From: an uncultured Flavobacteriaceae bacterium
GTDB lineage: Bacteria; Bacteroidota; Bacteroidia; Flavobacteriales; Flavobacteriaceae
Direction: 5' to 3'
Length of the DNA stretch: 64,000 bases
Assembly: GCA_947494565.1 (NCBI GenBank)
Contig: CANLVG010000009.1
Location: 1 to 64,000 of the forward strand
The position numbers were made by a program, and so were the translations under genes. How positions within the stretch are numbered: position 1 is the first letter of the stretch; every line of letters begins with the position of its first letter. Of the stretch, positions 59,234 through 63,819 are shown in pieces. The notes under the pieces are model-generated. The model saw only the letters and a list, made by a program, of their open reading frames with translations. It ran no database searches and was not told the origin of the DNA.

Positions 59234-60358
59234 ATGAAAGAAGATTATTATGATATCTTAGGAATCGATAAAAGTGCCTCGGCAGCCGAAATTAAAAAGG
59301 CATATCGAAAAAAGGCGATCCAATATCACCCGGATAAGAATCCCGATGACCCTAAGGCGGAAGAGTTGTTCAAGAAAGCTGCTGAAGCCTATGAAATCTT
59401 GAGCGACCCGAATAAGAAAGCACGCTACGACCAATATGGGCATGCTGCTTTTGAAGGCGGCGGCGGTTTTGGTGGCGGTGGCATGAATATGGATGATATC
59501 TTCAGCCAATTCGGAGACATTTTTGGAAGTGCATTCGGTGGTGGCGGTGGCTTTAGCGGTTTCGGTGGCTTTGGTGGCGGCGGTCAACGCCGGGTTAAAG
59601 GGAGTAACCTTCGAATACGCGTTAAATTGTCCTTGGATGAAGTCGCCAACGGAGTCGAAAAAAAGGTTAAAGTACGGCGAAAGGTACAGGCTGACGGGGT
59701 CACCTATAAAACGTGTTCTACCTGTAATGGTCAAGGGCAGGTCACGAAAATACAAAATACGATATTAGGGAGAATGCAAACTGCGGCCACCTGCACCACT
59801 TGTGCGGGTAGTGGCCAGATTATCGATAAAAAGCCCAATGATGCAGATGGGCAAGGGCTAAAAGTGGCCGAAGAAACGGTGTCTATCAATATTCCCGCGG
59901 GAGTTGAAGAAGGCATGCAATTAAAAGTGCCCAATAAAGGTAACGAAGCCCCTGGTAATGGAATTCCAGGTGACCTGTTGGTGGCGATTGAAACCGTTGA
60001 TCACGCGACTTTGAAGCGTGAGGGCGACAATTTGCATTATGATCTTTATATCAGTCTTTCAGATGCGGTATTGGGTACCTCAAAGGAAATAGATGCAGTA
60101 GGGGGCAAGGTGCGAATCAAATTGGAACCAGGTATCCAATCTGGTAAAATATTACGCCTCAGGGGAAAAGGGATATCCAGTCTAAACGGTTATGGTAGCG
60201 GAGATCTACTGGTACATGTAAATGTTTGGACCCCAAAGGAGCTGAATAAAGAGCAACGCGATTTTTTTGAGCGTATGCGAAACAACGAAAATTTTGAACC
60301 AAGACCCGAAAAATCGGACAAATCGTTTTTTGAAAAAGTTAAAGATATGTTCTCTTAA
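59234..60358 (+). CDS. dnaJ: Chaperone DnaJ with half zinc-finger domain
   Basis: Hsp40 cochaperone, 374 residues. J domain 1-70 with H32-P33-D34; Gly/Phe-rich linker 74-118; then the zinc domain, which has only two CxxCxGxG motifs (C161/C164 and C187/C190) instead of the usual four, so only one of two zinc sites remains. The C-terminal peptide-binding domains ([36 protein letters not shown]) are intact. Related Flavobacteriaceae DnaJ proteins seem to share this from memory. Operon with grpE; dnaK is elsewhere. Confidence 0.95.
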
Positions 60359-60390: not shown

Positions 60391-60398
60391 TATATTTG
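60391..60398 (+). promoter_or_regulatory. Promoter -7 element (TATATTTG) with no gene downstream
   Basis: Exact TAnnTTTG match 33 bases after the dnaJ stop. No plus-strand gene follows, only a hairpin and a terminator; no clear -33 element. Confidence 0.5.
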
Positions 60399-60402
60399 AT
60401 TC

Positions 60403-60486
60403 ATTGTTGGGCAACCAACAATAATTTTCTTTTTCATAGCAATTTTTTTCCCATCCTTGATTCTTTCGAGGGTGGGTTTTGTTTTT
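60403..60486 (+). ncRNA. Candidate small RNA of about 80 nt
   Basis: Begins 5 bases after a TATATTTG box. Hairpin 1: ATTGTTGG (60403-60410), GCAA tetraloop (GNRA type), CCAACAAT (60415-60422), perfect 8-bp stem. Then a T-rich single-stranded stretch to 60449, and hairpin 2 CCCATCC (60450-60456)/GGGTGGG (60470-60476) followed by TTTTGTTTTT, a terminator. Class unknown. Alternatively hairpin 2 is just the dnaJ terminator. Confidence 0.45.
60450..60486 (+). terminator. Rho-independent terminator
   Basis: CCCATCC (60450-60456), 13-base loop, GGGTGGG (60470-60476) with one T-G pair, then TTTTGTTTTT. Ends the candidate small RNA and/or the grpE-dnaJ transcript. Confidence 0.75.
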
Positions 60487-60788
60487 GTGGTGTTGGGTGA
60501 ATAGAACGCGGAGCCTTTCGATTTGCTAAGCCGTGCATTGTTTCCTTTACGGGATGTATCTGGGCACTCTTGTTTTAAACTATGGGTTATGACCAGTTTG
60601 ATAATTTAGATATATTGATTGCGATAGTAAGATATCGATCAAGCCGAGTTTAGGAATCGATATAGAAGGATAGTCCCATGATTCGCTTCTTGTTCAGCCG
60701 TCTTGCATTGCTAAGGACGATATGACTCCTTGAAATCAGTGCGTTGGGGGTTTTGAGATATCCATTCAATGATGACCTAAATACCGAG

Positions 60789-63422
60789 TCATTCTGTTTT
60801 CAAACTTTTAGCGGGATCGTTCAAGGCCGCTTTGATCGATTGAAAGCTTACGGTCAAAAGGGTAATCCCCAACGTGCCAAAGGCGGCCGATGCAAAAATC
60901 CACCAGCTCAATTCCGCACGATAGTTATAGTCTTGAATCCATATGCTCATATAGTAATAGCCAATGGGTATAGCAATACAGCAGGAAATAAGTACCAAGG
61001 TGACAAAATCTTTCGACAGTAATCTCCAAAGGCTAAGTACGGATGCTCCGAGCACTTTTCGAACCCCGATTTCCTTGGTTCGTTGCTCCGCTATAAAGGC
61101 TGAGAGGCCAAAGATGCCCAAACAACTGATACAAATCGCCAACAAGGCAAAAAACGTTGCCAATTTACCCATACGTTCTTCATCTACGAAATTTTGGGCG
61201 TACTCATCATCTAAAAAAGTATAGGAGAACAAACTTTTTGGATCATATTGGTTGAATACTTTTTCAATATGGGCGAGGGCCTCTTTTGTCTGTCCTTCGT
61301 TTGCAAGTTTGATATTGATGAAGCTCAGGAATCGGCCGTAGTGTAGGGTGAAGATAGTAGGCCGCACTTGCTCATAAGGAGAACGCGTGACCATATCCTT
61401 GACCACGCCTATAATCTTGAAAGGACCCATGGTTCCCCATTGCACCATTTCACCGACCGGATTTTCAAGACCCATGTATTTCACTGCCGTCTCGTTGACG
61501 ATAAAGGCCAGAGAGTCGCTTTTGAAATCACGTGAAAAATCGCGTCCTTGTTTGATTTCCCAATCGATCATTTCTCCGAAACCATGAGTGGATCTCAAGG
61601 TGTTGAATTCTTCGCTCATTGCAGGGTCTTTGCCTTTCCAGTCAAAACCGCTATTGGTCGTAAACGTGCCGGTAATCAGCACATCGGATGCAGCTACTTC
61701 CTTCACATCATTTGATCGTAAAAGCGCTTCACGTATTGTTTCAAAACCGTTGCGTACCTCTGGGTCGTTGATGGGTACATAAACCAATTGCTCCTTATCA
61801 TAGCCAAGAGGTCTTTCCTTGACATGTTTTAATTGTCGGTAAATCGAAACGGTTCCGATAATCAGAATCACTGAAATAGTAAACTGAAAAATGACCAATA
61901 CCTTTCTAAAATTGGAAGCGCCTTGCCCACCGCTGAAGGTGCCCTTGAGCACTTGAACAGGTCGAAAAGACGAAAGGTAAAAAGCCGGATAGCTTCCAGC
62001 AATGAATCCGGTAATGATAACGAACAATAAGCATAGCAACCAAAACCACGGACTTGCATAAGGAATTCCGACCGTCTTTCCGGTCAAATCATTAAAGAAG
62101 GGCAACCCGATCAAAACCAGTAGTAATGAGATGATAAAAGCCAAAAAGACAACCAGTAGTGATTCCATCTGAAATTGGAGTACCAATTGATTTTTCAACG
62201 AACCTATTGTTTTTCTAATACCGACCTCTCTGGCCCGTTTAACCGATTTGGCGGTACTCAAGTTCATAAAGTTGATACAGGCCAACAAAAGAATGAAGAT
62301 GCCAATGATTCCGAACATCCAAACACGTTGAATCGCTCCACCGGTATTCACACCATTTTCAAAACGGGAATACAGATGCCATTTTTTCATAGGATGCAAA
62401 TGGATAGTCGGTCTCGTTTGCGCACCAAAATTCCCTTCATCCTTGATATTATCGTATTTCGCATCTTTGATCAAGGTGGATACTTTGGCCATGTCGGCAC
62501 CGTCCGCTACTTGCACATAGGTTTGAAACCAGTTGTTGCCCCAACCTAAGCGCTCCTCAAAATTCGCTGTAGTGTTCAGTAACTCCCAAGGCGCAATAAA
62601 AGTAAGATCGGCGAAATCGGAATTTTGAGGTAGGTCTCTGTAGACACCGCCGACACGTGCTTCCATCCCTGTGCCGATCCGTACGGTTTGACCCATAGGG
62701 TCTTTAGATCCGAACAACGCCTTGGCAGTGGTTTCGGACAATAACATGGATGTAGGGTCTTCAAGTGCCTGCCTACTACCTTTTACCATTTGAAGGGATA
62801 GCATATGCACGATGCCGGGCTCCATGAAGTTACCGGCTCGTGAGATTTTAGTCTCATTTTGTTCGCCTACTGATAAAAGTTGATCATTTATGAATGAGCT
62901 TAAGACCACATGGCTAAAATGATCGTTGTATATGGTTCGGAGAACAGGGGCCAACTGCATCGGTTGGTTGACGGCCGTCTTTACTTCTCCACTGAATGTC
63001 TGCGTTTGCATTACCTGTGCAATGTTGTCATAGTTTTCGAACTCTTGGTTATAGGAGAGCTCACCATATACCCATATACCTATAAGTATGGTTGCTGCCA
63101 TGCCTAAGGCAAGCCCACCGATATTCAGGAGTGAATACCATTTGTCGGCTAACATATTGCGATACCCTATTTTGAAGTGACTTTTGTACATGCTATAATT
63201 CATAGTGGTCATTGAAATTGTTTTTTTAAGGGCAAAAGGCCGCAAATAGTTTATGACTTGGTAATAGTAGTTTAGCGTAGCCCGGAAAGAAGAATATTGG
63301 TTTAAGTCCATATGGAACTTTTCCTCAAGATCTCCTAATACCTCTTCCGTCAATTCGGCTCTGACAAGCCATTTTAAAAGGCTTGCTGCTCGTTTTGGCG
63401 GTATGTTTTTGTGATGGGACAT
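60789..63422 (-). CDS. FtsX/MacB-type ABC transporter permease with prefix domain
   Basis: An 877-residue inner-membrane protein. Residues 1-70 are the permease prefix domain seen on PadR-linked permeases (RAASLLKWLVRAELTEEVLG, DLEEKFHMDLNQYSSFRATL). Then a membrane helix at about 100, a MacB-like periplasmic domain, three FtsX helices around 370-500 (ILLLACINFMNLSTAKSVKR, AREVGIRKTIG), a second periplasmic domain and a second FtsX set near the C-terminus (AFIAEQRTKEIGVRKVLGAS). No ATPase gene adjoins, as is common for this type. It follows the PadR regulator by 8 bases and is almost surely controlled by it. Substrate unknown. Confidence 0.93.
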   Translation of the reverse strand: MSHHKNIPPKRAASLLKWLVRAELTEEVLGDLEEKFHMDLNQYSSFRATLNYYYQVINYLRPFALKKTISMTTMNYSMYKSHFKIGYRNMLADKWYSLLNIGGLALGMAATILIGIWVYGELSYNQEFENYDNIAQVMQTQTFSGEVKTAVNQPMQLAPVLRTIYNDHFSHVVLSSFINDQLLSVGEQNETKISRAGNFMEPGIVHMLSLQMVKGSRQALEDPTSMLLSETTAKALFGSKDPMGQTVRIGTGMEARVGGVYRDLPQNSDFADLTFIAPWELLNTTANFEERLGWGNNWFQTYVQVADGADMAKVSTLIKDAKYDNIKDEGNFGAQTRPTIHLHPMKKWHLYSRFENGVNTGGAIQRVWMFGIIGIFILLLACINFMNLSTAKSVKRAREVGIRKTIGSLKNQLVLQFQMESLLVVFLAFIISLLLVLIGLPFFNDLTGKTVGIPYASPWFWLLCLLFVIITGFIAGSYPAFYLSSFRPVQVLKGTFSGGQGASNFRKVLVIFQFTISVILIIGTVSIYRQLKHVKERPLGYDKEQLVYVPINDPEVRNGFETIREALLRSNDVKEVAASDVLITGTFTTNSGFDWKGKDPAMSEEFNTLRSTHGFGEMIDWEIKQGRDFSRDFKSDSLAFIVNETAVKYMGLENPVGEMVQWGTMGPFKIIGVVKDMVTRSPYEQVRPTIFTLHYGRFLSFINIKLANEGQTKEALAHIEKVFNQYDPKSLFSYTFLDDEYAQNFVDEERMGKLATFFALLAICISCLGIFGLSAFIAEQRTKEIGVRKVLGASVLSLWRLLSKDFVTLVLISCCIAIPIGYYYMSIWIQDYNYRAELSWWIFASAAFGTLGITLLTVSFQSIKAALNDPAKSLKTE

Positions 63423-63430
63423 CGAAGTTG

Positions 63431-63769
63431 TTATACTTGGAAGGTGAATTTTGTAAGTGCCGGGTATTGACTCCAGAGCGAAGTTCTTAGTTCCCTTGAT
63501 GCAATCAATGCTTTTTGGCCGCTGGCCGAAATAGTATATATTCTTTTCCTCCTTCCCCCTCGCAAGGCGGTTGGTTTCCCTATTTCAGAGGTTAGAAACC
63601 CTTTTTTGCTCAATCGGTCCAAAGTAGAATGGGTCGCTCCAATGGAAACGGATTTTCCGGTCTGGGATTCAAATTCTTCCGCTATTCGCAACGAGTAGGC
63701 TTGTTCTTCAAGAATGCCCACCAACAACAGTATGATTTCTTCAAATTCTCCTAATCGTGCTTCTTTCAT
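63431..63769 (-). CDS. PadR family transcriptional regulator
   Basis: A 112-residue winged-helix repressor: LGEFEEIILLLVGILEEQAY, SLRIAEEFESQTGKSVSIGA, THSTLDRLSKKGFL and RRKRIYTISASGQKAL (wing). Lacks the long C-terminal dimerisation extension, so subfamily 2. Start: ATG at 63769; a TTG two codons upstream is less likely. Eight bases before the permease gene, one operon. An inverted repeat embracing the promoter upstream (63820-63862) is the likely operator, implying autoregulation. Confidence 0.93.
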   Translation of the reverse strand: MKEARLGEFEEIILLLVGILEEQAYSLRIAEEFESQTGKSVSIGATHSTLDRLSKKGFLTSEIGKPTALRGGRRKRIYTISASGQKALIASRELRTSLWSQYPALTKFTFQV

Positions 63770-63819
63770 GGTCAAAACATTTTTAAGTGGAAGTACTTTT
63801 AATGATTGTATAATACTAG

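Follow-up and report, generated by a model that had tools for sequence, protein, structure and literature searches.

By its published description (PMC11697453), the FopS/GibS family of Bacteroides thetaiotaomicron comprises many paralogous small RNA (sRNA) copies that carry a common short conserved stretch. The RNAs, described from Bacteroidaceae, are ~65-70 nt long with a single-stranded 5′-terminal seed (R1/R1′) and canonical promoter elements, one member is derived from a 3′-UTR and one copy is reported in a phage. Binding by an RbpB-like RRM protein is a further trait of the family. The conserved stretch binds mRNA start regions, susC mRNAs being the case described (PMC11697453). In Flavobacterium psychrophilum, the sRNA Rfp18 is presented as having a third stem-loop as its predicted pairing region (PMC9723704).

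Here we describe a locus in the genome of an uncultured Flavobacteriaceae bacterium, found within a stretch of 64,000 nucleotides that was analysed as a whole (the window). As with FopS described in PMC11697453, the locus belongs to Bacteroidota, has promoter-like elements, is present in multiple copies (4-9 in some genomes, one in that of the window) and has phage copies. In contrast to FopS as described there, the core is internal and comes after a 5′ hairpin, the hairpins of the scaffold vary in sequence from copy to copy and the host family is another one. FopS was not taken to be the same RNA, a separation made on its description. Rfp18 is likewise a flavobacterial sRNA conserved beyond its species, but our unit has two stems and a single-stranded core; it lacks a third stem-loop, and Rfp18 as described in PMC9723704 was not taken to be the same RNA either. 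If Rfp numbers follow position, as we presume, the positions given in that paper would put Rfp18 at 0.18-0.84 Mb, whereas grpE-dnaJ starts at 1.80 Mb.

The preliminary description of the locus had allowed for membership of an existing RNA family, for which a search of the 64-kb window against Rfam 15 gave no support (0 matches at the gathering cut-off). The best sub-threshold match was to Ref84 (RF02846), an Enterococcus sRNA, at 31.3 bits against a 52-bit cut-off; it resembles our unit in having a U-rich stretch before the terminator, but comes from another phylum. The core and its complement, in DNA or RNA form, were found in none of the open-licence PMC papers searched (main text), and among the titles and abstract openings listed none describes a dnaJ-linked flavobacterial sRNA. 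On our best reading, this is an apparently undescribed, multicopy sRNA family that would act in trans and be FopS-like in action but different in architecture.

The unit downstream of dnaJ

The features of the locus are collected in Table 1. The dnaJ stop codon ends at 60358, and the promoter-like element, which we take to be a Bacteroidota -7 type promoter motif, begins 33 nt beyond it; an ATTC spacer separates this element from the 5′ stem. The arms of this stem, ATTGTTGG (60403-60410) and CCAACAAT (60415-60422), form a perfect 8-bp helix closed by a GCAA loop (60411-60414), and a U-rich stretch (60423-60449) lies between the two stems. All of these elements, including the terminator, are present where the preliminary description had placed them. 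As RNA, 60400-60490 folds at -31.2 kcal/mol, which none of 200 shuffles equals; the mean for shuffles is -14.28. In a mechanical scan both stems were scored as terminator-like, within a 3.5-kb region that has 12 such sites where 3.8 are expected. The ORF list of the window contains no ORF of ≥60 aa covering the unit. The window genome holds a single copy of the unit, and the exact core word occurs in it once.

Table 1 Features of the locus, in window coordinates
Feature	Position	Strand	Remarks
dnaJ, conserved upstream neighbour	59234..60358	+	ORF of 374 aa
Promoter-like TATATTTG	60391..60398	+	sequence motif
Proposed sRNA transcript	60399..60486	+	start inferred; model R2 match 60399-60484; folding z -6.29
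5′ stem-loop	60403..60422	+	sequence variable, pairing conserved
Near-invariant single-stranded core TCTTTTTCATAGCAATT	60428..60444	+	17 nt
Intrinsic terminator	60450..60486	+	stem 60450-60476, then T-rich tail

The unit had also been called self-contained. It does have a promoter-like element and a terminator of its own, but no terminator was seen between the dnaJ stop and TATATTTG in the window, so that read-through from dnaJ would include it. The downstream neighbour is a minus-strand ORF of 877 aa (60789-63422); by inspection of the translations, the minus strand of 60789-63775 carries this ORF, which is ABC-permease-like, and, immediately upstream of it, a PadR-like ORF of 114 aa. The DnaJ translated from 59234-60358 has only two CXXCXGXG motifs, where DnaJ usually has four.

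Conservation of the locus, the stems and the core

Among 146 core matches, in which some genomes are counted twice, the C-terminus of DnaJ is found 58-189 nt upstream on the same strand in 142; the other four lie <200 nt from the start of the locus, where DnaJ is cut off. TANNTTTG or a near variant precedes 146 of 147 core matches, the exception being cut by the locus start, in a scripted search that chose the wrong place in at least two loci (L042 and L069). The gap between the DnaJ match and the core exceeds 95 nt in 24 loci, and in 12 of these the intervening sequence contains a terminator-like site with a perfect stem.

A 221-base DNA search of 59 genomes found the region in the genus of the window and in much of the family, the best match in distant genera often being the linker and terminator alone. 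Scanning named genomes with a 31-base pattern, which selects on the core and so gives no proof of its conservation, returned at least 119 stretches; all 80 that were listed are labelled within Bacteroidota, many of them from Flavobacteriaceae genera (Winogradskyella, Mesonia, Gelidibacter, Maribacter and Psychroserpens). Model R2 matches 259 of 299 genomes of the family, and 227 of the 249 good ones. In a draw of 395 genomes from the phylum it matches 27: 25 are among the 41 family members, three of these matches being weak, and the other two, both weak, lie elsewhere. In a draw of 296 from the order it matches 34, of which 33 are among the 50 family members and the last, a weak one, lies elsewhere. 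Weak matches outside the family, in G367 and G382 (E 0.003-0.01) and in G037 (E 9e-4), were not counted as members, and G347 was left out as well, since it holds the exact word with no unit around it by eye.

The family members without a match (16 in the phylum draw, 17 in the order draw) all fall in one genus, g146, which, judging by its size, is presumably Flavobacterium. Eight g146 genomes examined by eye have no intact unit after dnaJ: G576 carries a decayed remnant, G396 and G656 keep the terminator sequence and the remaining five have only another terminator-like hairpin. The R2 matches of G396, G576 and G641 are weak (E 0.006-0.008). After dnaJ in G576 (L308), a promoter-like element and part of the linker survive next to a broken core, which gives the impression that g146 has lost the RNA gene. 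Such a loss may explain why no description of this RNA came to light for F. psychrophilum.

The 5′ hairpin is conserved as a structure. Of 128 distinct 5′ segments, 122 have a fold that ranks with or above the top 5% of mononucleotide shuffles of the same segment; loops have 3-7 nt and no common sequence. The GCAA tetraloop emphasised in the preliminary description is real in the window; loops elsewhere differ in length and sequence, which makes the GNRA cap incidental, and this lack of conservation was the reason for abandoning the idea of a GNRA receptor. The same description had pointed to compensatory changes in the 60403-60422 stem as a test, and these were found in two subsets with an ungapped stem and in a model-based alignment. 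In 14 window-like sequences three pairs are changed on both sides, giving 11 compensatory cells; 0 of 500 shuffles reach the number of cells or the score, while 103 reach the number of pairs and 178 the pair types. In 17 sequences of another cluster there are five such pairs and 15 compensatory cells; of 500 shuffles none reaches either figure, and 175 reach the pair types. The double changes in these two sets lie exclusively in the 5′ stem, the terminator there being nearly unvaried. The model-based alignment of 72 sequences, which favours structure by construction, has 17 of 20 pairs covarying in 225 cells, with far lower values in slid controls. Applied to 68 sequences aligned with MAFFT, RNAalifold detected the terminator alone, since the 5′ stem shifts register between sequences; the two ungapped-stem subsets and the covariance model did reveal it. 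Folding and the model-based alignment together give two conserved stems.

The linker is the part that hardly changes. TCTTTTTCATAGCAATT is exact in 29 of the 30 relatives' loci recovered by the 221-base search, a set unselected for an exact core, and is one base off in L018, from an incomplete genome. Across 390 genomes the exact 18-nt word turns up 44 times, in 23 of the genomes and with 43 of these sites inside the family; the reversed word turns up once. By eye, at least four of the 44 have no unit around them, and the in-family exact-word sites G652:C60, G608:C54:1667458 and G154:C12:258844 are without one or both hairpins. L028 and L030 keep the terminator stem with a different sequence next to an unchanged core. 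Because the core is near-invariant and the terminator stem is swapped in these two loci, selection seems to act on the sequence of the linker and on the pairing of the stems, not on stem sequence. The promoter-like element, covarying 5′ stem, linker and terminator thus support the candidate small-RNA gene of the preliminary description, which was right about the RNA but had directed attention to the stems, whereas the nearly unchanging element is the linker.

Further copies in bacteria and phages

Several genomes carry more than one unit. In a recheck of 17 genomes R2 gave nine matches each in G416 and G629, eight in G015, seven in G069, six in G294, five in G166 and four each in G083, G304, G148 and G259, counts that include some weak matches. 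Among 41 distinct core sites in fetched loci, picked by the core word, 36 have significant hairpins on both sides (random positions, 11 of 400), 32 a promoter-like element and 39 a T-run. Within one genome the core is identical between copies and the stems are often of different sequence; some copies have stems in common, as in the tandem arrays L260 and L266. Eight of the multicopy genomes (G416, G166, G015, G069, G294, G304, G148 and G154) keep one copy or tandem set just after dnaJ, which suggests that this is the ancestral place of the sRNA gene.

Tandem arrays of two to four complete units were seen in L260 (G015, 481-1000), L266 (G069, 650-1700), L250 (G154, 731-945) and L028 (1353-1589), the last with two units. 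The array of G015 has three copies ~252 nt apart, and that of G069 four copies with an almost identical 5′ hairpin. On contig 8 of G015 (L261 and L262), two copies ~10 kb apart have surroundings that match those of two copies in L366 (IMG/VR), and the region is probably a prophage carrying two such RNAs. A separate arrangement occurs in L505 (G154 contig 30, 1508-1558), where three CATAGCAA words lie within 51 nt, one of them in a possible hairpin loop; this is perhaps an RNA with several copies of a binding word.

The exact word was found in 30 viral-contig stretches. With a limit of E 0.01, R2 matched 22 of the 30, with 23 matches in all; these E-values are flattered because the stretches had been chosen for the core. 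Among 29 distinct viral sites, a significant hairpin lies just downstream of 22, both hairpins are present at 13 and TANNTTTG is seen at only 6; about 7 of the 30 stretches (L363, L372, L375, L380, L382, L389 and L392) resemble coding sequence or chance. By gene content L364 (integrase, regulators) and L369 (tape measure) are phage. Among annotated phage records, Polaribacter phage Leef_1 matches the unit at E 1e-6, and Polaribacter phages Danklef_1-5 and Freya_1-10 match at E 0.008-0.03, the inspected members Danklef_1 and Freya_1 having one extra T before CATAGCAA. Tenacibaculum phage Gundel_1 has an exact 19-base match at E 3 with a 5′ hairpin that is not significant, and was counted solely because the word is exact. 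These isolated phages fall in three phage families. In Leef_1 and Danklef_1 the unit comes after the endolysin gene plus one other gene, and in Gundel_1 it stands ahead of a tRNA cluster. The Leef_1, Danklef, Freya and Gundel_1 records have no feature annotated under the match, and the main text of the paper on these phages (PMC8776804) contains zero occurrences of small RNA, sRNA, ncRNA or intergenic. With the window's own unit as query there was no strong phage match (best among the matches listed, E 0.2), and one paralogue searched against plasmids gave nothing relevant.

Across these loci, comparison of sequences shows that stem pairing is conserved, that the core hardly varies and that paralogous and phage copies hold the same core between different hairpins. 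This looks like a real small-RNA gene, common to much of the Flavobacteriaceae and to some viruses of the family, with a probable role in the regulation of other genes.

Possible targets and competing explanations

The complement of the core, AATTGCTATGAAAAAGA, holds an ATG and an AAAAAG codon run, and the core is complementary to AUGAAAAAG start regions, with AAUUGCUAUGAAAAAGA as the complement given for such pairing. ATGAAAAA is the commonest start among 362 sampled genes of the window genome. The start regions of these 362 genes show no clear excess of matches (the real mean match is reached in 67 of 1000 flank shuffles), and in duplex energy over the same regions 8 of 60 shuffled cores bind as well. 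In twelve genomes with 2-9 copies, allowing up to 2 mismatches to the 17-nt complement gave 171 sites, of which about 65 are the sRNAs themselves; the reversed word gave 113. TGCT precedes ATG at 6 of 1125 starts, the highest of 12 permutations on a small number, and at ≤3 mismatches of 20 the window genome has six complementary sites besides the RNA itself (reversed word, 3). A search for TTGCTATGAAAAA in 59 genomes gave 51 sites in family genomes that were judged not to be sRNA copies; 50 were fetched, of which 22 lie at ATGs opening an ORF of ≥94 aa, two with long open upstream frames. In G002 (L433), G007 (L411) and G013 (L416), three species of the genus, the start of a lipoprotein gene has an 18-nt perfect complement to the core, and this mRNA is a possible target in part of the genus; homologues were found in 10 of 59 genomes, with none in that of the window. 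The start-region statistics and the multicopy genomes yield no convincing target set.

The best explanation, to which we give a probability of roughly 0.5, is an sRNA of ~85 nt with its own promoter, the core of which most likely pairs with the translation start regions of mRNAs. We infer its transcription, its action in trans and this pairing, the last being suggested by the start codon and common codon run in the core complement and by the precedent of FopS. In the proposed mechanism, 60399-60486 would be transcribed from its own promoter and, in the window genome, probably also be made as the 3′ end of dnaJ read-through. The 5′ hairpin and the terminator hairpin would hold the core of ~17 nt single-stranded as the working part, and its pairing with mRNA start regions would hinder ribosomes, as FopS does at susC mRNAs in Bacteroides. 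Extra copies in bacteria and phages would supply the same core from other promoters.

The strongest competitor, which we regard as a real possibility though the less likely one, is that the core is the site of an RNA-binding protein. The RNA would then serve, together with its paralogues and the copies in phages, as a decoy for or carrier of that protein, with no need for mRNA pairing. Sponges of this kind, CsrB and RsmZ, carry a short repeated word on otherwise free scaffolds. A protein site would account for a 17-nt word that varies less than a pairing seed needs to, for its presence on scaffolds of differing sequence, for the lack of an excess of complementary mRNA sites and for the three CATAGCAA words within 51 nt of L505; sponges, however, often have many words, whereas here there is usually one per RNA, in single-stranded form. 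A selfish or phage-derived repeat without host function would fit the phage copies and the tandem and dispersed copies of some genomes, but family genomes usually have a single copy at one fixed place, with compensatory stem changes and a near-constant core, and we think this improbable.

That the unit is merely the end of the dnaJ message, with two successive terminator-like hairpins and no separate RNA, would agree with the absence of a terminator between dnaJ and the unit in the window and with the terminator-like score of the first stem. We think it improbable in view of a promoter-like element at nearly every copy, a terminator-like site ahead of the unit in 12 of the 24 widely spaced loci, copies away from dnaJ and in phages, and a linker far more constant than a terminator requires. 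The core complement also reads ATG AAA AAG AAA, as the start of a minus-strand small protein (ATGAAAAAGAAAA) would; that frame enters the covarying stem and, by eye, meets early stops at different places, and the pattern is accounted for by plus-strand stems and a terminator, so a protein here is very improbable indeed.

Returning to an sRNA that acts through its core, we tentatively propose that a fixed 17-nt word on interchangeable scaffolds may be the active part of a family-wide system, amplified in some genera and carried by unrelated phages that would feed it into the RNA control circuit of the host during infection. Our impression from the literature is that RNA-based control in Flavobacteriaceae is little explored. 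If the proposal is true, most of the family would have an sRNA gene at one fixed place, easily deleted where it is single-copy; relatives of the RNA could be sought with its core word, and cultured phages carrying it would be at hand. A direct test of whether Bacteroidota phages connect to the sRNA networks of their hosts would then become feasible.
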